Assembly: GCA_033762625.1 (NCBI GenBank) | Contig: JANRLI010000002.1 | Location: forward strand, 62,001 to 126,000 | Direction of reading: 5' to 3' | Length of the DNA stretch: 64,000 bases | Origin: Alphaproteobacteria bacterium | GTDB taxonomy: Bacteria; Pseudomonadota; Alphaproteobacteria; UBA9219; RGZA01 | Shown here: piece by piece, positions 11,149-59,657 of the stretch | Position numbering within the stretch: position 1 is the first letter of the stretch | How the letters are laid out: each line of letters begins with the position of its first letter | Notes under the pieces: model-generated | The model's input: the letters and a program-made list of their open reading frames with translations, nothing else | What the model was told of the DNA's origin: nothing | Databases searched by the model: none | Position numbers and translations under genes: made by a program

Positions 11149-11994
11149 ATGGATAGATGGCAAGACAGGCTGGACGCCATACGGCAAAGCGGCTGGCAGG
11201 CAGGGGATGATGATTATTTAAGGCTTATTGCGCCCTTGTTTAAGTTGCGCCGTGGGTGTTCGGGCGTGGATGTGGGGGCTTTGGTTGGGCTTTATGCCAG
11301 CAAAATGGCCGAGAATGCCGCCCATACGCTGTGCTTTGAACCGTTGCCGGATGCCCGTGCTGTTTTAACGCAAAACCTTGAAAGCTATAAGGGTAGGGTG
11401 ACGATACGCGATTGCGCACTCGCTGATAAAGAAACGGTGGCCGACAAACGCGGCGAAGCGCAATTGTCATTTCCGATTTGCGGGCAGACTGCCGTGAAGC
11501 AATGGGCAAGCATTGAAAAAGATTTTGCAAAACTGGCCAGCGATTATCCCGGGAAAATTGACGGCATTGCCAGCATGACGGTGCCATTGCGCACGCTTGA
11601 TGAAGAGCTGATTGAATTGCAATTGCCGCCGCCCGCATATGTTAAAATTGATGCCGAAGGCGCGGAAGAAGCGATATTACGCGGCGCGCAAAAAACATTG
11701 CACAAGCATCGGCCATTTGTCGTGTGCGAATTGGAAGAACGCCATGTACCCGGTTGCACGCTGCGCACGCCGCAATTTTTAGATACACTTAACTACGATA
11801 TGTATTTTATTTTGGGTCATGCAATTTATCCGATTGCTGCATTTGATGCAGGCGTTTTGCAATTTGGCCCGCCGGTGCCGCAATTTGCAATGCCCGAGGC
11901 AAATTTTTCTAAACCCTACATCCAGATGTTTATGGGCTTGCCACGCGAAGACAAGGCTATGCTAGATTGCGTGAAGCATACATTGGCGCAATGA
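11149..11994 (+). CDS. FkbM-family methyltransferase
   Basis: Predicted S-adenosylmethionine-dependent methyltransferase, 281 aa. The SAM site reads SGVDVGALVGLYASKMA followed by CFEPLPDARAVL, and the FkbM hallmarks are VPLRTLDEELIE and YVKIDAEGAEEAILRGA. Family members O-methylate sugars or macrolides, and in Gram-negative bacteria often modify surface polysaccharide. The start ATG has AAGGAA 5 nt upstream. The MFS transporter gene begins one base after its stop, so the pair is cotranscribed. Confidence 0.85.
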   Translation: MDRWQDRLDAIRQSGWQAGDDDYLRLIAPLFKLRRGCSGVDVGALVGLYASKMAENAAHTLCFEPLPDARAVLTQNLESYKGRVTIRDCALADKETVADKRGEAQLSFPICGQTAVKQWASIEKDFAKLASDYPGKIDGIASMTVPLRTLDEELIELQLPPPAYVKIDAEGAEEAILRGAQKTLHKHRPFVVCELEERHVPGCTLRTPQFLDTLNYDMYFILGHAIYPIAAFDAGVLQFGPPVPQFAMPEANFSKPYIQMFMGLPREDKAMLDCVKHTLAQ

Positions 11995-11995
11995 A

Positions 11996-13237
11996 GTGAT
12001 TAAAAAAATGTTTGATAAACTGTTCAATAATCCCAATTCCCCGTTTCACTATCGTGATTTCTGTCTTTTAAGCTTGTCGCGTTTTATTGGCACGCTGGGC
12101 TGGCAAATGTTGGGTGTTGCGATTGGCTGGCAGATTTATGAAATCACCCATGATCCCTTTGCCATCGGCCTTGTGGGATTATCGCAATTTTTGCCCAGCA
12201 TCATTTTGGTGCTGTTTGCCGGGCAGCTCGCTGACCAGATGGACCGCAAGCTGATTATGGCGGTTACGCATTTCATTGCGGCTTTTGCCGGTGCGATGCT
12301 CATGCTGGGCGTCAATTTTGATTTTATGTCGCCTGCGTTGATTTATATCTTGTCGGCATTGCTGGGCGCGGTGCGTATTTTCGGCGCGCCTGCGATGCAG
12401 GCGCTGCTCCCTAATTCTGTGCCGCCTGAACAGTTCAGCAAGGCGGTCGCACTCAATTCCAGCATGTTTCAGATTGGCACGATTATGGGCCCCGCGATTG
12501 GCGGCGCGCTGTTCTTCTTTGGGGTATCAACGGTCTATACGGTTGCGGGAATTCTGTTATTGCTGGCGGGTATTTTAAATATGCAAATGCGCGTCAAAAC
12601 CGCGATTGTGAAACGCCCGCTCACGCTTGAGAATTTATTCGCCGGTATTTTATTCATCAAGGAACGCCCGATTTTATTGGGCGCCATTTCACTGGATTTG
12701 TTCGCGGTATTATTCGCAAGCGTGATTGCGCTGCTGCCGGTTTATGCCAAAGACATTCTGCATGTCGGCCCGCAAGGGTTAGGGTTATTGCGCTGTGCGC
12801 CCGCGATTGGCGCGGTTATCATGTCGCTATGGCTGGCCAAGCATGGCCTTAAAGCAAATGCCGGACGCAATCTGTTTTTAAGCATCGTCGTATTTGCAAT
12901 AGTGACGATTATTTTCGGTCTTTCGACTAATGCGTATCTATCGTTTGTAATGCTGATGGTGTTGGGTTGTGCCGATATGGTCAGCGTTTATGTGCGCACG
13001 CATCTGATGCAAATGAACACCCCCGATGAAATGCGCGGCCGCGTTGCCAGCGTGAACATGCTGTTCATCACCACATCCAACGAGCTGGGCGATTTTGAAT
13101 CCGGCGCCATGGCGGCGTGGCTGGGCACGGTGCCTGCGGTGGTGGTGGGCGGAATTTTATCACTGGCGGTTGCCGGCATCATCGCATGGCGCGTGCCGTC
13201 GCTGCGCAATCTGAAAACACTGGAAGAAGTGAAGTAG
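11996..13237 (+). CDS. MFS transporter (EntS-like, MFS_3 family)
   Basis: Inner-membrane major facilitator superfamily protein of 413 aa with about twelve hydrophobic segments. LFAGQLADQMDRKLIM is the conserved MFS loop 2-3 motif, and NTPDEMRGRVASVNML is typical of the MFS_3 / enterobactin-exporter-like branch. Drug, siderophore or metabolite efflux by proton antiport is the family role; the substrate is unknown. Translation probably starts at GTG 11996 or ATG 12008. It is coupled to the FkbM gene and abuts the stop of a convergent orphan. Confidence 0.87.
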   Translation: MIKKMFDKLFNNPNSPFHYRDFCLLSLSRFIGTLGWQMLGVAIGWQIYEITHDPFAIGLVGLSQFLPSIILVLFAGQLADQMDRKLIMAVTHFIAAFAGAMLMLGVNFDFMSPALIYILSALLGAVRIFGAPAMQALLPNSVPPEQFSKAVALNSSMFQIGTIMGPAIGGALFFFGVSTVYTVAGILLLLAGILNMQMRVKTAIVKRPLTLENLFAGILFIKERPILLGAISLDLFAVLFASVIALLPVYAKDILHVGPQGLGLLRCAPAIGAVIMSLWLAKHGLKANAGRNLFLSIVVFAIVTIIFGLSTNAYLSFVMLMVLGCADMVSVYVRTHLMQMNTPDEMRGRVASVNMLFITTSNELGDFESGAMAAWLGTVPAVVVGGILSLAVAGIIAWRVPSLRNLKTLEEVK

Positions 13238-48802: not shown

Positions 48803-51800
48803 ATGCGTAAATCTGCCCTAGCACTGCTTGTCGCGTTCCTTTTTCTGCTTATGCCGCATATGTCCTATGCCGCAACGTGTACGCTTGATGAAGCGACGGT
48901 CGGCGGAACCGATGCAACCTGTCCTGTGGGCGGCGGAAATAATTTCCTTCCTCAATCCGGATTTAATTCTGCGCGTTTGCAACCGACCAATATCCTAAGC
49001 GGCACACCTATCAACATTAATAATACATGCCGTTATGTCGATGCGCGCGGCATCACTGCATCTATTTTCGTTCCATTTAATTCATCGACCGAATGGAACG
49101 CATTCATCGCCAATCACCCTGCGCAAACCAATGTTACGCAATGTTGTATTCCGCGCGTGATGCGCGTTTCGGATGTTCCGCGTCCAACCGAAAGCTGTAA
49201 TCATGGCCGCTGGAATTTGCAGGGAATTGTTGCATCAACTGCTTCCACAACCTATATCGCGCGTCCTGTTTCACAAGCCCCAACCTCTGCCATCGTGCTG
49301 CAAACAGGCAATTCCGAAGACCCTGATTTTCCAATTTCCTTATTCCCGATTGAACGCGATGATATCGGTTCGGTATTCCCGGCCGGCGCACGGGTAAGCG
49401 AAACCTATCTTGCACGCTGGCAGTGCTTTGGCGTTGTGCCGCGCGGTACAGGCGCAGATACAACCGCGCACACAACCGATATTACTGGCGGTACCGTTGG
49501 TGCGATCGCCGGCGAAATTGGCGATATCACATTTACCAGTTTCAGAATGCAATGCCGCAACAGCAACTGGACATCCATTGATCCGGACACCTGTGTTGAG
49601 ACGATTACCGCTTCGACGCGCAGCTGCTCGCAGAATGACCATCCATCCAATTGGGTTGGAACGGTTGGTGTGCTCAATACCAAGTATTGCCCTGCTGGCA
49701 ATATCACATCACAAGTTGTGATTGATACCTGCCGCGCACCAACAACGTGCACCCCATCATCGAGCACAACTACGGTTCCGTGCGCGAGCGGCTATACCGG
49801 CAACATCACCCGCACCACCGCGCATGTCTGTGATGGCAGCAACAATGGCGCAGGCCGTGATACCGTTACCGATGACACCAGCCAGTGCGTTGCGATTACC
49901 TGCACGCCGGGCCAAGTCGGTAACAATTTTACCGAAAGCTGCGGCGAAAATTTCACCGGCACAGCGGTTTACAAAAACATGCGCACCTGCCCAACCGGTA
50001 GCGGCACAGATGGTGTGATTACCAAGACGCTGGTTTCAAATACCTGCGTTTGCCCTCCAACCACCGATTTGGGTAATGTCAACAAAACCTGCCCAACAGG
50101 CCAGACTGGAACATGGACTGTTCGCCAGACCAAGACCTGCGTTCAGGCACAGCCAACAGGCAATGTCATCCAGCCATGGGGCATTTGTTCATGCAGCACA
50201 TCTGAAACCGATGTGACGAATACCTGTGCGCCAACCACCTGTGTGCCTGGCCCTTATGGTGATAACTTCACCGAGGCTTGCCCATCCGGCCAAATCGGCA
50301 TCATCACCAAGCGCCATGTTCGTGCATGCCCTGCGGGTACCACCACCGATGAAGTGGTAAGCAACACCTGCACCACATGCGTTGCCGGTCCTTACGGTGA
50401 CACCTTCACTGAAGAATGCCCTGTCGGTAAAACAGGCATCATCACCAAGCGCCATGTGCGCCAGTGCCCATCCGGCGCTACGGTTGATGAAGTGGTAAGC
50501 AATACCTGCGTTCCGGGTTGCCGTGCTGGCCAAGTGGGTCAGACCTTTGCGGTCGCTTGCCCGAACGGACAAAGCGGTCTTATCACCAAGAAGCGTGTTC
50601 GTGCTTGCCCATCGGGGATTATCACCGAAGAAGAAGTTTCCAACACCTGCAGCGCAACCTGTGTTCCGGGTCAGGTGGGTGATACCTACGCACTGGAGTG
50701 CCCATCGGGTCAAACCGGCTTGATTACCAAGAAGCATGTTCGTGCATGCCCATCGGGGATTATCACCGACGTTGAAGTTTCCAACACCTGCACGGCGCAA
50801 GCATGTGTGCCGGGCCAAGTTGGCCAGACCTTCACTGCCGCTTGCCCATCGGGTCAGATTGGTACAATCACCAAGCGCAATGTCCGCGCTTGCCCATCGG
50901 GTGTCATTTCCGAGGAAGTTATCAGCAATAGCTGCGTGACGACTACGGGTTGCATCCCTGGCGAGGTGAGTCGTTCGGCCGTTGATTGCGGAATTGGCAG
51001 AACAGGCCAGATCACAACCATCAACACCCGCGTATGCGATGGCAGCAATAACGGCGCAGGCCGCATTGTGACCACAACCCAAAACACATGCAGCGGCGGT
51101 TCAACTTGCGTTCCTTCGCGCACGGAAACACGGGAAGTTTGTCCGGTTGGCCAGCAAGGTTATATAAAAGTCATCACCATGCATGTGTGCCACAGCCGCA
51201 TGGGATTACGCGGTTGGGAAGGCTGCGATGATGAATACAACGCCAATAGCGGTAACAACGGCTGGCTGCGTTGGTTCGATGGCGGTGAACGCGATATCAT
51301 TATCCGCGAAAACCATTGCCGCCCGATGACCAGCTGCACCCCGTCAGATACATCGACGAGTTCGGCATGTCCATCAGGGCAGAGTGGACAAATCATCACC
51401 CGCCGCCAGCATATCTGTGATGGTAGCAATGATGGCGCAGGCCGCGATGTGGTAACAACCACGAACCAATGCACCACATCTTGTACACCTGGCGCTGTAT
51501 GCAACCCTTACACATCACCCTGCCCAACAGGCCAAGTTGGTGTGATTACACGCCAGAATTTCCGTGTATGCCCATCGGGTGACATTGAAATCCGTGAGCT
51601 TTCCAACACCTGCCATACGGCGTGTGTGGGTGGCAGCAGCACGGTGGATACGCCGTGCCCATCAGGACAAACAGGCGTTATTCGCACCACCACAACCCAT
51701 ATCTGTGATGGCAGCAACAATGGCGCTGGCCGTGATGAAGTAACGACCGATAACCAATGCCGTTCCGCATGTACGCCGGGCGTTACAAGAACAACGCGCG

Positions 51801-52912
51801 CTTGCCCAACAGGCCAGACTGGTGAAATCGTTGTAAGAACCCGCCACATCTGTGATGGTTCGAACAATGGCGCTGGCCGTGATGAAGTGACGGAGCGTAA
51901 CCGTTGCCGCACGGCTTGTGTTCCAAACATCTCGATGATGGTTGAAGATTGCGCGCCAGGTTATACCGGTGGCCGCACCATTAAAACCGAACATGTCTGC
52001 GATGGCAGTAACGACGGCGCTGGCCGCGATGTTGTGACCACAACTGGTGAAGCTTGCCGTGTGCTCTGCACCCCAAGCGCAACCGCGCTGCTTGAAAACT
52101 GCCCTGTGGGTCAGGTTGGCGGCCGCACGACGCGCACCGAACATGTGTGCGATGGTTCGAACAATGGCGCTGGCCGTGATGTGGTGACCGTGACAGGCCC
52201 TGCATGTCATTATGAATGCACCCCATCGAACAATGTGGTGGAAAGCGCATGCCCGTCTGGTCAGACAGGTGTCATTCGTACACGCACACGCCATGTTTGC
52301 GATGGCAGCAATGACGGTGCTGGCCGTGACATTGTAACGACCGATAATCAATGCCGCACGGCATGCACGCCTTCATCAAGCTATGTGGATGCATCATGCC
52401 CATCGGGACAGACCGGTTACATCCGCACCACCACCGCGCATATCTGTGATGGTTCGAATAATGGCGCGGGCCGTGACACCGTTACAACCGATAACCAATG
52501 CCGCGCAACCTGCATCCCCGGTGCGACATGTCAGCCATATACCAGAGCGTGTCCTACGGGCCAGACAGGGATCATTACCTTGCACCGTGTGCGTCAATGC
52601 CCATCGGGTAATGAGGTTGAAGAAGTGATCAGCAATACCTGCACGCCGATTATTGTGTGTGTTCCAACAAGCAATACCACGTCACGTGCATGCCCATCGG
52701 GTTACACAGGTCTGATCTATACAACCAATGCCCATATCTGCGATGGCAGCAATGGCGGATTGGGCCGTGATACAACAACCGAAGATAACCAATGCACCTT
52801 TGTTGTAAGCGGTGACGGCGGTGGTTACAGCGGCGATGGCGGCGGCGGTGATGGTGGAGGCGATGGCGGCGGCGACGGTGGTGGTGACGGCGGCGGCGAT
52901 GGCGGCGGTTAG
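48803..52912 (+). CDS. Exported cysteine-rich mosaic repeat protein 1, 1369 aa
   Basis: Large Sec-exported protein of unknown family. A signal peptide (MRKSALALLVAFLFLLMPHM..., cleavage near SYA-A) is followed by a unique N-terminal domain of about 290 residues, shared with the protein at 57278, with FVPFNSSTEWNAFI, CCIPRVMRVSDVP and RDDIGSVF. The array has two module types of 45-50 residues: one with CPSGQxGxITK and VSNTC, the other with CPSGQTG and HICDGSNNGAGRD. Ten DGSN-type modules are present. It ends in a repeated Gly-Gly-Gly-Asp tail. Start ATG 48803 has AAGG upstream. Even cysteine spacing implies disulfide-stabilised extension from the cell surface. Adhesin or sheath roles are guesses. 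Confidence 0.85.
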   Translation: MRKSALALLVAFLFLLMPHMSYAATCTLDEATVGGTDATCPVGGGNNFLPQSGFNSARLQPTNILSGTPININNTCRYVDARGITASIFVPFNSSTEWNAFIANHPAQTNVTQCCIPRVMRVSDVPRPTESCNHGRWNLQGIVASTASTTYIARPVSQAPTSAIVLQTGNSEDPDFPISLFPIERDDIGSVFPAGARVSETYLARWQCFGVVPRGTGADTTAHTTDITGGTVGAIAGEIGDITFTSFRMQCRNSNWTSIDPDTCVETITASTRSCSQNDHPSNWVGTVGVLNTKYCPAGNITSQVVIDTCRAPTTCTPSSSTTTVPCASGYTGNITRTTAHVCDGSNNGAGRDTVTDDTSQCVAITCTPGQVGNNFTESCGENFTGTAVYKNMRTCPTGSGTDGVITKTLVSNTCVCPPTTDLGNVNKTCPTGQTGTWTVRQTKTCVQAQPTGNVIQPWGICSCSTSETDVTNTCAPTTCVPGPYGDNFTEACPSGQIGIITKRHVRACPAGTTTDEVVSNTCTTCVAGPYGDTFTEECPVGKTGIITKRHVRQCPSGATVDEVVSNTCVPGCRAGQVGQTFAVACPNGQSGLITKKRVRACPSGIITEEEVSNTCSATCVPGQVGDTYALECPSGQTGLITKKHVRACPSGIITDVEVSNTCTAQACVPGQVGQTFTAACPSGQIGTITKRNVRACPSGVISEEVISNSCVTTTGCIPGEVSRSAVDCGIGRTGQITTINTRVCDGSNNGAGRIVTTTQNTCSGGSTCVPSRTETREVCPVGQQGYIKVITMHVCHSRMGLRGWEGCDDEYNANSGNNGWLRWFDGGERDIIIRENHCRPMTSCTPSDTSTSSACPSGQSGQIITRRQHICDGSNDGAGRDVVTTTNQCTTSCTPGAVCNPYTSPCPTGQVGVITRQNFRVCPSGDIEIRELSNTCHTACVGGSSTVDTPCPSGQTGVIRTTTTHICDGSNNGAGRDEVTTDNQCRSACTPGVTRTTRACPTGQTGEIVVRTRHICDGSNNGAGRDEVTERNRCRTACVPNISMMVEDCAPGYTGGRTIKTEHVCDGSNDGAGRDVVTTTGEACRVLCTPSATALLENCPVGQVGGRTTRTEHVCDGSNNGAGRDVVTVTGPACHYECTPSNNVVESACPSGQTGVIRTRTRHVCDGSNDGAGRDIVTTDNQCRTACTPSSSYVDASCPSGQTGYIRTTTAHICDGSNNGAGRDTVTTDNQCRATCIPGATCQPYTRACPTGQTGIITLHRVRQCPSGNEVEEVISNTCTPIIVCVPTSNTTSRACPSGYTGLIYTTNAHICDGSNGGLGRDTTTEDNQCTFVVSGDGGGYSGDGGGGDGGGDGGGDGGGDGGGDGGG
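49744..52800 (+). repeat. Tandem cysteine-rich module array 1
   Basis: About twenty tandem modules of about 146-150 nt each in the CDGSN type. The CPSGQ/VSNTC type clusters in the first half (50.2-50.95 kb) and reappears singly at about 51.5 and 52.5 kb. The Ser of DGSN is coded AGC/AGT in seven modules and TCG in three (near 51859, 52155, 52454). Confidence 0.85.
52815..52909 (+). repeat. Gly-Asp codon repeat tail of mosaic protein 1
   Basis: Imperfect 12-nt units coding GGGD, beginning after VVSGDGGGYSGD and running to the stop. Being multiples of three, slippage would change length without breaking the frame. Confidence 0.85.
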
Positions 52913-52920
52913 TTAAACTA

Positions 52921-53060
52921 GCGCGATGCCTCTGTGCCTTTATTCGCCGTTCGCTCTGCGCCATTTTATTGATGCGATGCTTCTGCGCCTATCGGCGCAA
53001 CCAGCCCTGCTAAATGGCGCAACCGCTTGGGCGAAGTTGGCACAACCGGCCCTGCTTATA
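52921..53060. repeat. Interspersed hairpin repeat, composite copy
   Basis: The longest copy, 140 nt: GCGATGCCTCTGTGCC, TTCGCTCTGCGCC, GCGATGCTTCTGCGCC, GGCGCAACCAGCCCTGC, GGCGCAACCGCTTGGGCG and GGCACAACCGGCCCTGC. It looks like nested insertion of several units. It directly follows the stop of mosaic protein 1. Confidence 0.85.
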
Positions 53061-53194
53061 TTAATTAATATTAAACGTGCGGCATAAAAAAATAGGATGA
53101 AAGTATAATCATGCTTGTTGCGCATATTATCGGGGCCTATAACAAGCGCACGAAATTTAGAGCGATTGGTTTATAGTTTTTTTAGGAGATTGAT

Positions 53195-53701
53195 ATGGCA
53201 GTAACACTCGATAATGTTCAGCTCGATACAAACGCAACCTTCACCGAAATGCTCGGTTTTGCACGTGGTTTGGTTGACCGCGACCAACCAATTGAAGAAT
53301 TGTTTGGCCCATCAGGTAAAGCCGTGACGATTGTTATGTCGCGCTCTGAAATGATTGTGCTCGCACAAGCTTGCCCAGATGGCACCAACCGTTGCCTTAG
53401 CCGTAATCACTTTGACCGAGTGCCAGGTGCACGTACCAAGCGTGATTTCAACGATGTAGGCTGGGGTCAAAATCGTTTTCAAGGCCGTGGTACCAAGCAA
53501 GCGGGTCCTAACTATCAGCAAATTGACTCCTATGATGCGCATCCAAGATTGAGATTTAATCAACGCGGTCAATTCTTTAACGGCCGTGAGTGCATCGTTG
53601 TAGCAGGCGGTAATTCAAGAGATGGTGGTACAACCCCGCGCCGCGTTGTTAGCCGTCGTGCTGGCACAGCTGCTAGCTGCCCGACGGTTACTCTGGACTA
53701 A
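53195..53701 (+). CDS. Orphan Arg/Gly/Asn-rich protein, 168 aa
   Basis: Unknown protein without a signal peptide. MAVTLDNVQLDTNATFTEML follows a strong AGGAG. The N-terminal third is acidic and ordered; the rest is rich in Arg, Asn, Gly and Gln (GWGQNRFQGRGTKQAG), with four cysteines. It stands between the mosaic protein genes with its own terminator. The codon use and strong ribosome binding site suggest high expression. Confidence 0.65.
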   Translation: MAVTLDNVQLDTNATFTEMLGFARGLVDRDQPIEELFGPSGKAVTIVMSRSEMIVLAQACPDGTNRCLSRNHFDRVPGARTKRDFNDVGWGQNRFQGRGTKQAGPNYQQIDSYDAHPRLRFNQRGQFFNGRECIVVAGGNSRDGGTTPRRVVSRRAGTAASCPTVTLD

Positions 53702-53719
53702 TCAATTAAACAGCCTGTT

Positions 53720-53752
53720 TAAAAACCCCGCCACATCAGCGGGGTTTTTTTA
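53720..53752 (+). terminator. Rho-independent terminator
   Basis: AAAACCCCG / CGGGGTTTT stem with a 9-nt loop and a T run, 20 nt after the stop of the 168-aa orphan. Confidence 0.85.
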
Positions 53753-53761
53753 TTGAAGTAT

Positions 53762-53812
53762 TTGCGCCATTCGTTCTGTTCCGCTGCGCGGAACAACCGC
53801 TCGGGCGAAGCA
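53762..53812. repeat. Interspersed hairpin repeat copy
   Basis: TTGCGCCATTCGTTCTG, TTCCGC / GCGGAA stem arms and CAACCGCTCGGGCGAAG. The TTCCGC arms replace the usual TGCGCC arms, again a compensated stem. Confidence 0.75.
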
Positions 53813-53978
53813 GGACGCTTATATATGTGCATGAATCAATCTTCGTATTAACCACGTTATCTGCATCAGAAACTATTTAAATAATTGCTGAAGCTTTGTT
53901 TCATCATGTATAACCAAGAAACAGTAATTTTGATTTTTTAGAATTGTTTTTAACGAAGTCATTTTAAGGGGAATACCC

Positions 53979-54320
53979 ATGGTTGGAAAAGTTATGCGCG
54001 CTGGCGCAGTAATATTAGAACTCGGCGCTGTGGCAGCAGGTATGGGCTTGCGTTCAGCACAAGCAGATACCACTATTATCACAGCCAAAGAAAGCAAAGT
54101 GGTTTGTGTAACCACGATTAAAGGCGGCCGTACCACGACCGATTGCATTGGCGCAGAAGAAGCCGTTGAGATTAAAGTTCAAACGCTTCCTGCCACGACA
54201 AGCGGATTTGCACCCATGCAGCGGATTTGTGATCCTGCCCGCCCTGCGACATTAAATAGTGGTTTGGTATGCGGCCCTGATGGCTTGGTGTATGCCCCCG
54301 GTTCCGGAAATGGCGGCTAA
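53979..54320 (+). CDS. Small exported protein, 113 aa
   Basis: Unknown Sec-exported protein. A signal peptide at residues 1-29 (AGAVILELGAVAAGMGLRSA, cleavage after AQA) precedes a Thr-rich mature part of about 84 residues with four cysteines (VVCVTT, TTDCIG, QRICDP, LVCGPDG) and a Gly-rich end (APGSGNGG). The pattern CVTTIKGGRTTTDCIG could be a disulfide loop. It has AAGGGG before the ATG and a terminator after it. The Gly-rich end recalls the tails of the flanking mosaic proteins. Confidence 0.7.
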   Translation: MVGKVMRAGAVILELGAVAAGMGLRSAQADTTIITAKESKVVCVTTIKGGRTTTDCIGAEEAVEIKVQTLPATTSGFAPMQRICDPARPATLNSGLVCGPDGLVYAPGSGNGG

Positions 54321-54340
54321 TTAAAAATTGATAACCTCAT

Positions 54341-54376
54341 AAAAAACCCCGCTTTTCAGCGGGGTTTGTTTTTTTG
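54341..54376 (+). terminator. Rho-independent terminator
   Basis: AAACCCCGC / GCGGGGTTT stem with a 6-nt loop, followed by GTTTTTTTG, behind the 113-aa exported protein gene. Confidence 0.85.
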
Positions 54377-54378
54377 TT

Positions 54379-54446
54379 TGCGCCATTCGCTCTCCGCCTT
54401 GTTGTTGCGATGCCTCTGCGCCTTGCGGCGCAACAGGCTCTGCTTA
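54379..54446. repeat. Interspersed hairpin repeat copy at a gene end
   Basis: CGCCATTCGCTCTCCGCC, TTGTTGTTGCGATGCCTC, TGCGCC / GGCGCA and CAACAGGCTCTGC. It overlaps the stop of the DUF1513 gene by 3 nt and continues open in that frame beyond the stop as AEPVAPQGAEASQQQ. Confidence 0.85.
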
Positions 54447-55742
54447 TGCTAAATCCGCATCGTGATAAAGATGCGTTGAATCGTAATTGGATGATTTGAA
54501 CTGTGCGAGCACTTCGCGGGTCTTCAAATCCATCACAGCAACATCATAGTACGTGCCGCACACGGCAATGCAGGTGGTACCGGGAATTTCGGCAACGCCG
54601 CGGATACCATTCAGTTTCAATTGTTCATGGGTGATGATTTCCGCATCCTTGCCCGGGGTGTGCAGCACAAGATTATCGGAGTGGTAATAAAGCCCAATCG
54701 CCGTATCCATCGCTGTGTTATAAGCAACCGATTGCGAGCGCATATGATGTTTGTTGCCAAGATAAATCACTTGGCGTTCACCGGTTTGGGTATTGATGCG
54801 CAGGAAGGGCAAGCCAACCGCCAGATGTTTTTCCTGCATGGCAATGCTTGGAACCGGATAATCCCATTTCTGTTTGAAGATGCGTTCCATTTCAGCGAGC
54901 GCGATTTTATCCGCTTCTTCGCCGGGCTTGAGGTTTTCCGGTTTTTCAAAGGTGACGTATTGGGTAAGCACGATGTATGCCCAGCCATCTTTTGAAACGC
55001 GCATATGCGTGGACATGGCGTTGAATTCATTCTGGTCATAGTGACGTTTTGGCTTATAGGTCTGGCTATCCAGAATGGTGAGCTTGGTGTCAATCACATT
55101 GAATTCCAGCGGCTTTTTGCGCTCTGCTATATCGCCGTAATGGGTTACTGCAAGCTCTGCCGGATTATTGGGAATCTTGTGAATTTCATGCGGTTGAATG
55201 CCGCCGCTGTCAATCATATCCAGCTTTTTCAGGCTGGTTAAATCATAGACTTCAAAGCGGCCAGTATCGGAGGCGGCGTGAGGTTTTGATGCGCGCATCG
55301 GCAGAATGAACTGGTTGCGTTCAGGGAATACCAGACCATGGCCGCCATAAAGATAGCCTTCGGGCGCGGTGAAGGTTGCAAGCACCTTGTGGTCTTTATC
55401 AACCATCATGCTGAGCGGTTTGTGGTGGGACACGCACAAAATGCGATTATCGCCTGCGCCCATGGCGGCATGGCCTTCGCCCATATCGAGCGATGTTTGC
55501 TTCATCTCGCGCGTTTCCAAGTCAAACGTCGTCAGAATGCTGGTGGTTTTCCTTTCTTTGTGTTCATTGCCGGGGTATTTTTTCCCGCCAAGACCGAATG
55601 CGAAGAGTTTGCCTTTCAGCGTCGGTTTTACCTCGGCAACTTTTGGCGCGGCTGTTTCTGCGGCTGATAGCGGGTTGCCAAACATCAGGGCGCTGCCCAT
55701 CAAGCCTGCACCAATTATAAAGTCGCGGCGGGTCGTTTTCAT
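54444..55742 (-). CDS. Tat-exported DUF1513 protein
   Basis: Periplasmic DUF1513 protein of 432 aa, predicted beta-propeller. The twin-arginine signal reads MKTTRRDFIIGAGLMGSAL, with SAAETAAPK after the h-region; ATG 55742 is the natural start. The body has DGDNRILCVSH-like (GAGDNRILCVSHHKP) and GYLYGGHGLVFPERNQF blocks. Family members occur next to iron-uptake or peroxidase genes (imelysin, DyP), none of which is here. Export by Tat implies a folded or cofactor-bound protein. Confidence 0.87.
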   Translation of the reverse strand: MKTTRRDFIIGAGLMGSALMFGNPLSAAETAAPKVAEVKPTLKGKLFAFGLGGKKYPGNEHKERKTTSILTTFDLETREMKQTSLDMGEGHAAMGAGDNRILCVSHHKPLSMMVDKDHKVLATFTAPEGYLYGGHGLVFPERNQFILPMRASKPHAASDTGRFEVYDLTSLKKLDMIDSGGIQPHEIHKIPNNPAELAVTHYGDIAERKKPLEFNVIDTKLTILDSQTYKPKRHYDQNEFNAMSTHMRVSKDGWAYIVLTQYVTFEKPENLKPGEEADKIALAEMERIFKQKWDYPVPSIAMQEKHLAVGLPFLRINTQTGERQVIYLGNKHHMRSQSVAYNTAMDTAIGLYYHSDNLVLHTPGKDAEIITHEQLKLNGIRGVAEIPGTTCIAVCGTYYDVAVMDLKTREVLAQFKSSNYDSTHLYHDADLA

Positions 55743-56013
55743 TGCCAATAACTCCAAAATGATTTTATTTTACGCAAGGTGAATGTGAGCCTTGCGCAAA
55801 ACAACGCAATATCACGCTGTTCAATATAGTGTCATTAAATAAACAACTGGTTTATGAAGCCATTAAACCATTAAATTTTGTTAAGATTTGGGCAGTTTGT
55901 GCTTATTTTTTCAGTGGGATTATGCGGTTTTATGGGCCGCTAACGCGGCATTAACCCAAAACTGAAAGCTTTTATTTTAAGCTTGGAACATAACCTGTTT
56001 TTAAAGGATGCTG

Positions 56014-56982
56014 ATGGTCAGCCGGATACTGCCACCCCACGCATTGCCAGGCGTGCATAACGAGCCATTGCCGCAGAACCGTATTTTTGGACGGCATCAA
56101 CACCTCGTTTATGACATCCCATCCAGCCGTCCGGAGCAGGGTTATGATGTCAATGGCATTGGCCACTTGTCATCGAATACCAAAATCGCCGCGCTGGCGC
56201 TGATCGCGCGGGTAAGGGGTGTTGAATATTTACAGCAGAATATGGGGCGCCTTACACGGATGATGAGCCAGTCCCATAATGATGCAACGATTGTTGAAGT
56301 ATCGCGCGCGCTGAATTATTCCGGCGCAAATGTGTTTGCCGCGAATTTCCGCCCGATGACCATGCAGGGCGGCGTGCTTAATCGCGGCAATGATAATCAT
56401 CTTTCCAATACCATGAATGGAAATGTGCAGCGTTTTTATGAAACCTATCGCGCAGAGTTGGCAAAATACCAAACCGAGCTTGGTATCGCCGGTTCCAGAT
56501 TCCGTGATACATCAGGGATTGCCGATCGAGCATCACGCATCGGCACATCGCAGGCATCGCCGCTGCATGTCGCGCATTTGGTGGATTATCTCTACAAGCT
56601 GGATAACGGAAAAACGCTAAGCCAGCTTGCAACGCCCGCCAATCCACAACACACAACACACAGATATTTGGCAGAGCGTGCGATAAGAGATCCGCAACGT
56701 CCGCGAAATGGCGAAATATTTTTTGCCAAAACCGGAACGCTGGATGTATCGCAATTTCACAAGTTGCCAGCAGGCAGCGGTGTGCCGCAGCAATTTCCAA
56801 CCGGCGTATTCGTGTTGACGCTTGGATATATTCAAGATGGAAAACCGAAAATGGCATTCATCCGCGCGAATTCATCCGAAGAACGCAAACAACTTGCGAA
56901 CAGATTTCTGGATGATGTTGCGGGCACAACGCCGCAACTGATTGCGCAACGCCGCACACAACCCTTTCCACCTACCGCATAA
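56014..56982 (+). CDS. Penicillin-binding-protein-like serine hydrolase (S11-like)
   Basis: The three active-site motifs of penicillin-binding proteins are in the right order. Numbered from the ATG at 56008, they are Ser56-x-x-Lys59 in HLSSNTKIAALAL, Ser89-His-Asn91 (SxN) in MMSQSHNDAT and Lys241-Thr-Gly243 in FFAKTGTLD. The segment RFRDTSGIADRASRIGTSQA resembles the S11 stretch before the active-site cleft closure. This makes it a low-molecular-weight DD-carboxypeptidase-like or beta-lactamase-fold hydrolase. There is no signal peptide, which is odd for an enzyme acting on peptidoglycan. Start ATG 56014 has AAAGG 6 nt upstream. Confidence 0.7.
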   Translation: MVSRILPPHALPGVHNEPLPQNRIFGRHQHLVYDIPSSRPEQGYDVNGIGHLSSNTKIAALALIARVRGVEYLQQNMGRLTRMMSQSHNDATIVEVSRALNYSGANVFAANFRPMTMQGGVLNRGNDNHLSNTMNGNVQRFYETYRAELAKYQTELGIAGSRFRDTSGIADRASRIGTSQASPLHVAHLVDYLYKLDNGKTLSQLATPANPQHTTHRYLAERAIRDPQRPRNGEIFFAKTGTLDVSQFHKLPAGSGVPQQFPTGVFVLTLGYIQDGKPKMAFIRANSSEERKQLANRFLDDVAGTTPQLIAQRRTQPFPPTA

Positions 56983-57277
56983 ATCAAAATACACATCGGT
57001 TTTTTGTGCGCATGGCAGCTCGTAGCAATTTGCCTGTTGCGGGCATTTTTAGTGCCTTAATTTAACATTTTTTCGAAGGCCGTTAACCTTTTAACCAAGA
57101 TAGGAAAAAAAACGTAAGTCTTTTGAACGCATTAACCAGTTAACGAAAAATGAAAGTAAATTTCGGACTCGCAAACCCTTTAAAAAGTGCTAAAAAACGA
57201 TTGATAAAAGTTTAGGCAATTCAATTTGTCTTTCGGGCGTTTTTGGTACGAAACGAACATTTTAAAAGGGTATTTTT

Positions 57278-59599
57278 ATGCGCAATATTATTCTTTCTCT
57301 GATTGTTTCCTTGCTGCTGTGTGGTACAGCGCAAGCAGAAGTATCAACGCAGTGTTCGATCGATAAAGCTGTTACCGATGGTAACACCACTTATCCCAAG
57401 TGCCCTGTGCGCAGCGAAAATGGTCAGTTGATCACCACCGATCATTTCACCGGCGCTCGCCTGCAACCCGATGTGACCATCAGCAAGACACCAATATATG
57501 TGCACGGCGCATGCCATTATATTGATGCTGCTGGTATCACCAGCCCGTTATTCGTTCCATTTAACACGTCCGAAGAATGGGCAGCATTCCTGACCAACAC
57601 CCCCGATAACGTGCACGTTGCAAATTGCTGTATTGCGCGCAACTTGCAAGTGTCGGACGTTAAAGCTCCAACCCAAACCTGCTCGGCAGGTTCATGGCGT
57701 TTGCAAGGTTTGGTGAATTCTTCAAACACCAGCCAGTGGTTTGCACAAACCATCACCACCACCACAACCTCTTCATCATGGTTTTATTACTACTCGACCA
57801 GCTCTTCGTCATCGGGCACCATTTCGGGTAGCACCAGCGGTTCAAGCAGTTCATCGGGCAGCTCATCGAGCAGCTCATCCAATGGCCGTCAAACCGTTGC
57901 TGTTACCAATAACCCCGTTTCTTTGCCAATCTCACGTGATGATATCGGTTACCTTGAACCACGTGAAGGCAACAACCCAGGTTCGTTCACTGCACGCTGG
58001 ATTTGCGGCACGGGCGGCACTGAAAATGTACCCATCCCTGGCCCAGCAGCTAACGCAACCGTTGGCGCAGGTACCGTTGTATTCGTAGATTTCCGCATGA
58101 CCTGCCAAGACCAAGCTTGGAAGACCGTGACGGGCTGTGTTGACAGAACATACTCTGCAACCAGAACCTGTCAGGAAGCTGGCCACCCAGAAGGCTGGAC
58201 CGGCAGCGTTTCCGTTATCGTTCGTGAAATCTGCCAAGGCGATGATGCGATTGCTCCTTCGACCGACGTTATCAGCGACACCTGCGTACCACCGACCACC
58301 ACTGGTGATCTGTGTGAAGAAGGCCAAGTTGGCGAGACCTTCACCAAGGCATGCCCAGATGGTGACATGGATGGTACCATTACCATGAAGCGTTACCGTT
58401 CATGCCCAGAAGGTTCTGGCACGGATGGCGTGGTAAGCGAACTTCAGGTTTCCAACACCTGCGTATGCGTTCCGACCAAGGATCTTGGCAACGTGGAAAA
58501 GAATTGCCCATCGGGTCAGACCGGTAAAATCACTGTGCACCAAGTTCGCACATGTATTGATGGTTCTGTAAAAGCGACCTATGGCCGTATTCCAGTTGGC
58601 TACAGCAAGAAGACGTCTTCTGCGACCACCTCACGCGGTGTAAGCACCAAAGCTGTAGGCGATACCAACACCATCGATACAACCACCACCAACCCCGGCA
58701 CCTGCAACTGCACCATTGCAGAAACAGAAGTGTCCAACACCTGCACCAGCTGCACGCCTTCGGAAGTAACCACAACCGAACCTTGCACAGAAGGTTCAGG
58801 CATCGTAACTGTCAAGACCAAGCATATCTGCGATGGTTCGAACAATGGTGCAGGCCGCGATGAAGTAACCCGTGACACCAGCCAGTGCCATGCAGTGTGC
58901 GTACCAAGCGAACGCTATGTGGATACGGCTTGCCCACAAGGCCAAACAGGTTACATCCGCACCACCACCAAGCATGTATGCGACGTTTGTGGATGCAATG
59001 CTGGCCGCGATATTGTCACCGTGGACAATCAATGCCGCACAACCTGCGTACCTTCAACCAACACCACTTGCGGCCCATGCCCATCTGGTCAGGAAGGTCA
59101 CATCAACACCACCACAGAACATATCTGCGATGGTTCGAATAATGGTGCTGGTCGTGACGTGGTACGCACAGACAACCAGTGCCGTGTGATCTGCACACCT
59201 TCAACCAGCACCACCTGTGGCCCATGCCCAGCTGGTTATGAAGGTCATATCAACACAACCACTGCGCATCTTTGCGATGGTTCGAACAATGGCGCAGGCC
59301 GCGATGTGGTGACCACTGACAATCAGTGCCGCCCAACCTGCACACCTTCGACCCATGTGACATCCCGTTCATGCCCACCAGGCTATAGCGGTTCAATCAC
59401 AGTGACGACAACCCGCACCTGCCCGGACAACCAAGACCATGTAACCGAGCAGAACAACTGCACCTATATCCCACCATGCACCTATGGCTGTGGTGGCGAC
59501 GGCGGTGGTGACGGCGGCGGTGACGGTGGTGGCGACGGCGGCGGAGATGGCGGCGGAGATGGCGGTGGTGGTGACGGCGGCGGCGATGGCGGCGGCTAA
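57278..59599 (+). CDS. Exported cysteine-rich mosaic repeat protein 2, 773 aa
   Basis: Paralogue of the protein at 48803. A signal peptide (MRNIILSLIVSLLLCGTAQA) and an N-terminal domain that aligns with it: FVPFNTSEEWAAFL, CCIARNLQVSDV and SRDDIGYLEP. A Ser-rich spacer (about residues 165-205) separates the first part of this domain from the second. The array has the CPDGD/VSNTC types first and then four DGSN-type modules, three canonical and one altered (CDVCGCNAGRD). It ends with the same GGGD tail. Likely surface exposed and disulfide stabilised. A strong terminator follows. Confidence 0.85.
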   Translation: MRNIILSLIVSLLLCGTAQAEVSTQCSIDKAVTDGNTTYPKCPVRSENGQLITTDHFTGARLQPDVTISKTPIYVHGACHYIDAAGITSPLFVPFNTSEEWAAFLTNTPDNVHVANCCIARNLQVSDVKAPTQTCSAGSWRLQGLVNSSNTSQWFAQTITTTTTSSSWFYYYSTSSSSSGTISGSTSGSSSSSGSSSSSSSNGRQTVAVTNNPVSLPISRDDIGYLEPREGNNPGSFTARWICGTGGTENVPIPGPAANATVGAGTVVFVDFRMTCQDQAWKTVTGCVDRTYSATRTCQEAGHPEGWTGSVSVIVREICQGDDAIAPSTDVISDTCVPPTTTGDLCEEGQVGETFTKACPDGDMDGTITMKRYRSCPEGSGTDGVVSELQVSNTCVCVPTKDLGNVEKNCPSGQTGKITVHQVRTCIDGSVKATYGRIPVGYSKKTSSATTSRGVSTKAVGDTNTIDTTTTNPGTCNCTIAETEVSNTCTSCTPSEVTTTEPCTEGSGIVTVKTKHICDGSNNGAGRDEVTRDTSQCHAVCVPSERYVDTACPQGQTGYIRTTTKHVCDVCGCNAGRDIVTVDNQCRTTCVPSTNTTCGPCPSGQEGHINTTTEHICDGSNNGAGRDVVRTDNQCRVICTPSTSTTCGPCPAGYEGHINTTTAHLCDGSNNGAGRDVVTTDNQCRPTCTPSTHVTSRSCPPGYSGSITVTTTRTCPDNQDHVTEQNNCTYIPPCTYGCGGDGGGDGGGDGGGDGGGDGGGDGGGGDGGGDGGG
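58756..59460 (+). repeat. Tandem cysteine-rich module array 2
   Basis: Four CDGSN-type modules and one further module. The Ser codon of all three canonical DGSN motifs (near 58836, 59134, 59280) is TCG. Confidence 0.8.
59493..59596 (+). repeat. Gly-Asp codon repeat tail of mosaic protein 2
   Basis: Imperfect 12-nt GGGD units from CGGDGGGD to the stop, matching the tail of mosaic protein 1. Confidence 0.85.
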
Positions 59600-59623
59600 C
59601 GCAAACCAAGCCTAACAAATCAG

Positions 59624-59657
59624 AACCCGGCTCTTCATCGAGCCGGGTTTTTTGTTT
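59624..59657 (+). terminator. Terminator of mosaic protein 2 gene
   Basis: Stem AACCCGGCTC / GAGCCGGGTT with a 6-nt loop, then TTTTGTTTT. The remaining 240 nt before the next gene show nothing I can name. Confidence 0.9.

Follow-up and report, generated by a model that had tools for sequence, protein, structure and literature searches.

The Peptidase_S74 domain is a self-cleaving chaperone of trimeric phage-type fibers, and in T4-like phages the fiber gene (gp37) is followed by a separate gene for the protein that contacts the receptor at the tip, the Gly-rich gp38. The position of gp38 at the tip of the T4-like phage fiber has been described (PMC12892980). Among bacteria, Bdellovibrio bacteriovorus produces mosaic adhesive trimeric (MAT) fibers, many of which are S74 proteins; the MAT fibers have diversified tips, one of which was shown to bind bacterial glycans. 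Members of the S74 subgroup carry Peptidase_S74 at the C terminus, and the NS74 subgroup of these trimeric fibers has a conserved ∼130-aa β-rich N-terminal domain (PMC10769870). The same report gives 13 S74 fiber genes for B. bacteriovorus, and the terms 'fibrinogen', 'neighbour', and 'gene pair' are absent from its text as searched (PMC10769870). A further adhesin of this species, the MIDAS/VWA protein Bd0875, is described with a lipobox and with a small domain different from the one analyzed here (PMC11003981).

The window, a stretch of 64,000 nucleotides from an alphaproteobacterial genome (G000), encodes two exported mosaic adhesin-like proteins, A and B, that are tied to an unnamed, fiber-linked domain (the core domain) and probably represent fiber-type attachments at the surface, not an isolated curiosity. 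As in the MAT fibers, one end of these exported mosaic surface proteins is conserved and the other diversified, and S74-type fiber genes precede genes for core-domain proteins. However, A and B are chains of disulfide modules in which the S74 domain (PF13884) is absent, and they are therefore not S74 MAT proteins. The two-gene layout recalls gp37/gp38, and some core-domain proteins are Gly-rich like gp38, whereas they differ from it in having signal peptides and conserved Cys residues; searches of phage records, IMG/VR, and BFVD for phage tips similar to the core-domain proteins were negative, although the two may share a fold. A paralogue in G000 (L014) joins the core domain to a VWA domain and so resembles Bd0875, but VWA is missing from A and B. 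Short Cys-rich tandem modules, here with a predicted β structure, are also a property of TSP1, EGF, and ephrin-receptor-like modules. Those of A and B differ in having four Cys residues in a C-P-x-G..G pattern and in lacking a Pfam, PDB-sequence, or significant Foldseek match, and on sequence grounds both proteins appear to lie outside any named Cys-module family. The features of the region, in window positions, are listed below.

48803..52912, plus strand: protein A, 1369 aa, exported, 97 Cys; ATG at 48803, dN/dS 0.11 against G002
48803..48871, plus strand: Sec signal peptide of A, residues 1–23, MRKSALALLVAFLFLLMPHMSYA, read from the sequence
48872..49747, plus strand: N-terminal region of A, including the core domain, from alignments; model mean pLDDT 80.8
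48971..49144, plus strand: core domain of A, from the core profile match; 7.9e-12 with the outgroup-only HMM
49748..52795, plus strand: array of 20 Cys modules in A, from module profile matches; three-module model with pLDDT 90
52796..52909, plus strand: Gly/Asp tail of A, from the sequence; replaced by a Ser/Ala tail in G001
53195..53701, plus strand: P0003, Arg/Gly-rich orphan, no signal; in 2/33 genomes of the order, own terminator at about 53721-53750
53979..54320, plus strand: P0004, small exported four-Cys orphan; in 2/33 genomes of the order, terminator at 54344-54367
54444..55742, minus strand: P0005, DUF1513 protein with a twin-arginine start; PF07433 at 29.8 bits against a cut-off of 27
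56008..56982, plus strand: P0006, PBP-like by motifs only; SxxK, SxN, and KTG visible in order
57278..59599, plus strand: protein B, 773 aa, exported, 49 Cys; ATG at 57278, dN/dS 0.14 against G002
57278..57337, plus strand: Sec signal peptide of B, residues 1–20, MRNIILSLIVSLLLCGTAQA, read from the sequence
57455..57628, plus strand: core domain of B, from the core profile match; 1.7e-11 with the outgroup-only HMM
58310..59461, plus strand: Cys-module array of B, about 7–8 modules, from module profile matches
59462..59596, plus strand: short linker of B with two Cys, then the (GGGD)n tail, from the sequence
59622..59651, plus strand: strong intrinsic terminator 3′ of B

A and B have a common layout of a Sec signal, an N-terminal region of about 290–320 residues, tandem four-Cys modules, and a Gly/Asp tail. 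The modules of A start after an N-terminal region that ends near residue 315; in B, this region carries a Ser-rich insert ahead of the modules. Two large exported Cys-rich proteins with a common N-terminal region had been proposed in the preliminary description of this DNA, and the reading frames, the signals, and the 97 and 49 Cys residues bear this out. Both genes are under purifying selection relative to their G002 orthologues, and dN/dS values of 0.11 (A) and 0.14 (B) indicate that they are constrained protein-coding genes. Taken with the paralogues bearing the same N-terminal region on other contigs of the genome, these low values place the architecture beyond chance. Neither protein matched Pfam (none up to E = 1), NCBIfam, or PHROGs, in agreement with the earlier view that the N-terminal domain and the modules belong to no named family.

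The core domain comprises ∼56 aa with the consensus C..V.N....FVPTKT..EW..F....P.GV....C. No model for it was found in Pfam or NCBIfam and no match in the PDB by sequence profile; searches of phage and plasmid records, of IMG/VR, and, by fold, of BFVD were equally negative. For the model of the N-terminal region, the best Foldseek match in the PDB had an E value of 0.18, and neither Foldseek nor VIA returned anything significant. To avoid circularity, an outgroup-only HMM was built from 44 sequences of Bdellovibrionota, Patescibacteria, and Hyphomicrobium, with none from the organism's own order. It detected A at 7.9e-12 and B at 1.7e-11, compared with 0.044 for the best of 1000 shuffled decoys. 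With a signal peptide and a core, A and B both belong to the core-domain superfamily, which is unnamed and is defined here. The HMM search of the N-terminal domain suggested in the preliminary description led to no named family, and the core of the domain was found well outside the order.

Within the order, 19/33 genomes match the core profile, as do a few other alphaproteobacteria. The core is homologous across phyla and stands at the N terminus of exported proteins in named genomes of Parcubacteria, Falkowbacteria, other Patescibacteria, Bdellovibrionota (34/192 genomes, with Bdellovibrio bacteriovorus kdesi among the carriers), and Hyphomicrobium. General occurrence in Pseudomonadota was considered and rejected, with 0/298 other sampled genomes positive at 1e-5; it was likewise rejected for Patescibacteria, where the domain is sporadic (1/287, the center genome itself). 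The sequence that follows the core varies each time and includes Fibrinogen_C/GGGW, LVIVD, a Vgb_lyase propeller, Gly_rich_2, and Ephrin_rec_like, with PA14 and VWA in addition in the organism's own order. In G000, paralogues with an N-terminal region of the A/B type are C (contig C17), D and the VWA protein E (both on C16), and one on C20; in f1, this protein family has 5–9 members per genome. D and E form a conserved pair in which the core-plus-VWA protein E lies beside the core-domain protein D (L014:4769-7380, with equivalents in L045 and L046), and in G001 and G002 the pair adjoins an hslV-like gene.

The link of the core domain to fibers comes from gene order in other bacteria. Four proteins encoded upstream of core-domain genes, at the Parcubacteria, Falkowbacteria, Hyphomicrobium, and CG_2015-02 loci, contain PF13884 according to Pfam, and the Falkowbacteria locus has another S74 gene, closer to the core-domain gene than the first. 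The loci were also scanned with our own S74 profile, and the count was restricted to core-domain hits from outside the order for which 800 bp or more of upstream sequence was available. In 27/46 of these, the same strand carried an S74 gene <800 bp upstream, and no S74 gene was located downstream or on the opposite strand; the figure overstates independence, as many of the Bdellovibrionota loci are closely related. The chance expectation for upstream cases is estimated at well under one, taking a density of 13 S74 genes per genome of about 3.5 Mb. The same gene pair is seen in several phyla, and its two members mostly overlap or abut, nearly all gaps being −32 to +54 bp. In some Bdellovibrionota, one fiber gene is followed by two core-domain genes in tandem. 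The fiber is gone in B. bacteriovorus kdesi, and a remnant of it, the coiled-coil end, persists just 5′ of a pair of core-domain genes (score 188 against a shuffle maximum of 60). This site (L109:5675-9350) shows an S74 deletion scar in which the coiled-coil C terminus is fused to a regulator-like gene, TIGR02147-type by inspection; the two tandem core-domain genes of this locus are fibrinogen-like. In the part of the literature covered by our search, we found no account of either the core domain or its pairing with S74 fibers.

S74 fibers are encoded in 32/33 genomes of the organism's own order, and pairing with a core-domain gene is rare there (G002, G027, and G032, and G003 at about 0.6 kb). 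The case in G002, a species of the same genus as G000 (contig C11, L221:8048 onwards), is a 104-aa protein encoded 40 bp behind an S74 fiber gene and consisting of little beyond a signal peptide, the core domain, and a short Gly-rich end, a minimal fiber-linked member of the superfamily. No S74 gene adjoins A or B, and in three species none was found in the vicinity of any of A through E. The only S74 gene found in G000 encodes a 3379-aa protein on contig C19 (L217:1511-11650), the N terminus of which resembles a pilin/TadE-type membrane anchor. After 12 bp comes a gene (11663-12694) whose exported product of 343 aa contains 12 Cys and belongs to no known family, and a further protein similar to P0005, also with a twin-arginine start, is encoded near this locus (L217:15335-16639).

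Beyond the N-terminal region, A consists mainly of 20 modules of 46–76 aa. The modules of A and B follow the pattern C-x(10-13)-C-P-x-G-x-x-G-x-I-...-C-...-C and are of three kinds: a CDGSNNGAGRD type, a RACPSG type, and a longer CPPTTDLGN type with extra Cys. The modules had been recognized in the preliminary description, but as two kinds only. The GGGD tail that it reported for both proteins is present in A and B of G000 but is not a conserved feature and was rejected as a defining one, since both proteins of G001 end in Ser/Ala tails. In a set of 385 genomes drawn from the class, the module HMM matched G000 and G002 only; modules are also present in G001 and, more distantly, in G003 and G004 of the same family. 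As found so far, the Cys modules appear confined to this one bacterial family. AlphaFold, applied to three modules in line with an earlier suggestion to model adjacent ones, predicts repeated three-stranded sheets, one per module, with a mean pLDDT of 90 and a pTM of 0.46; the modules appear structured at the level of the model, with each single module well defined but its arrangement relative to the others not fixed by the prediction. Comparison of the three-module model with the PDB gave nothing significant in Foldseek (best E 0.23), and the best VIA match, with a Z score of 4.2 (rmsd 3.1, 40 residues), was to an unrelated chain. The modules had no PDB match by sequence profile and were not found in phage and plasmid records.

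Nearly all modules of G000 pair with a counterpart at the same position in G002. The sister species G001 shows a different relation, in that the terminal modules of A align in succession with those of B, with identities of 76% (A17-B4), 84% (A18-B5), and 79% (A19-B6), and the Ser/Ala tail that replaces GGGD is common to both proteins. These matches indicate an exchange of distal ends between A and B within one genome, despite the separate sites of the genes. In G001 (L042 and L043), the homogenized segment comprises the last three modules and the tail. Simple gene conversion may account for the exchange; alternatively, it may reflect a need for the two distal ends to correspond.

The preliminary description treated A, B, and the four intervening genes as one functional set at a single locus, which could build or anchor an extended surface structure such as an adhesin, holdfast, or sheath. 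The gene order from A to B is kept entire in the close species G002, which favors such a unit. In G001, of the same genus, A occupies the same chromosomal site, flanked by the same two neighbors (a heparinase-like gene before purH and a flavin-reductase-like gene, both named by inspection), but none of the four intervening genes is present, and B is found on a different contig, close to leuS, between lptE/holA-like genes and an exported-protein gene, again named by inspection. P0003 and P0004 have relatives in G002 alone among the 33 genomes of the order, strong intrinsic terminators lie 3′ of P0003, P0004, and B, and P0005 is on the opposite strand. The comparison with G001 largely refutes the single locus, the idea of a conserved locus was rejected on the same comparison, and we regard a joint role in an extended structure as very improbable. 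P0003 and P0004 are probably neighbors and not parts of the A/B system, and P0005 and P0006 are read in the same way. The characters first assigned to the individual genes fared better: P0003 is Arg/Gly-rich, P0004 is an exported Cys protein, and P0005 is a DUF1513 protein, with PF07433 above the gathering score. Its Tat export is less firm, as the twin-arginine motif is visible but the TIGR01409 score is sub-threshold. P0006 contains, in order, the three motifs of the penicillin-binding/β-lactamase superfamily (SxxK, SxN, KTG), but the proposed PBP-like hydrolase has no family-model match, in either Pfam or PDB sequences.

Because the core of the N-terminal domain is homologous to fiber-linked exported proteins, a cell-surface role of A and B is more likely than it would be from their sequences alone. 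We infer that they reach the surface, dock there, and adhere. In the reading that we prefer, and to which we give about even chances, A and B would be secreted surface proteins of the core-domain mosaic superfamily, in which the small disulfide-type core docks its own protein onto an S74 fiber or a comparable scaffold at the surface, with contact made by the variable C-terminal part. In A and B, this part would be a chain of 46–50-residue modules, three-stranded and stapled by disulfides, that serves as an extended, flexible spacer or as an adhesin and carries the low-complexity tail at its distal end. The constant N terminus, the freely exchanged remainder, and the position of the gene directly behind a fiber gene give the superfamily the look of a plug-in tip or fiber-associated adhesin. 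The weakest point of docking is that A and B have no adjacent fiber gene. They may represent a fiber-unlinked, lineage-expanded branch of the superfamily, and the partner would then be encoded elsewhere or the scaffold would be a different one.

The missing S74 gene near A to E in three species suits surface or secreted adhesins that are no longer fiber-related, their core having been recruited anciently and serving now as a generic folding or retention domain. The 5–9 members per genome in f1 point the same way, as does the extension of the A/B N-terminal region to about 290 residues when the fiber-linked versions are short; the retention of S74 fibers in 32/33 genomes of the order and of the gene pair in G002, G027, and G032 argues against it, and we consider this loss of the fiber connection possible but somewhat unlikely. 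The strict order of fiber gene and then core-domain gene, overlapping or abutting as with phage fiber chaperones, could instead mean that the core domain is an assembly or quality-control partner of S74 fibers, active in folding, secretion, or processing, to which the C-terminal parts are secondary fusions. These parts are large, diverse, and adhesin-like, however, A and B exist without an adjoining fiber gene, and tandem pairs of core-domain genes stand behind one fiber in some Bdellovibrionota, all of which makes a mere assembly partner improbable. A more ambitious form of the docking reading is that the core is the common adaptor of a two-gene surface system, an S74 fiber with a separately encoded, swappable tip, that spans Bdellovibrio relatives, Patescibacteria, and alphaproteobacteria. 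On this view, the tips formed by A and B would be very long ones, disulfide-stapled arms of up to 20 modules on fibers encoded elsewhere in the genome. We hold this two-gene system as a speculative and rather unlikely possibility.

How predatory and epibiotic bacteria recognize other cells is an open question, to which the MAT fibers of Bdellovibrio are an early specific answer. If S74 fibers bear a swappable, separately encoded protein attached through one common domain, host or prey specificity would be built from two genes. Many exported proteins now annotated as 'hypothetical' could then be assigned a cellular location, and searches for them could start from the short core domain. The size that the swappable part may reach is illustrated by A and B: 20 disulfide modules, of a kind so far found in a single bacterial family.
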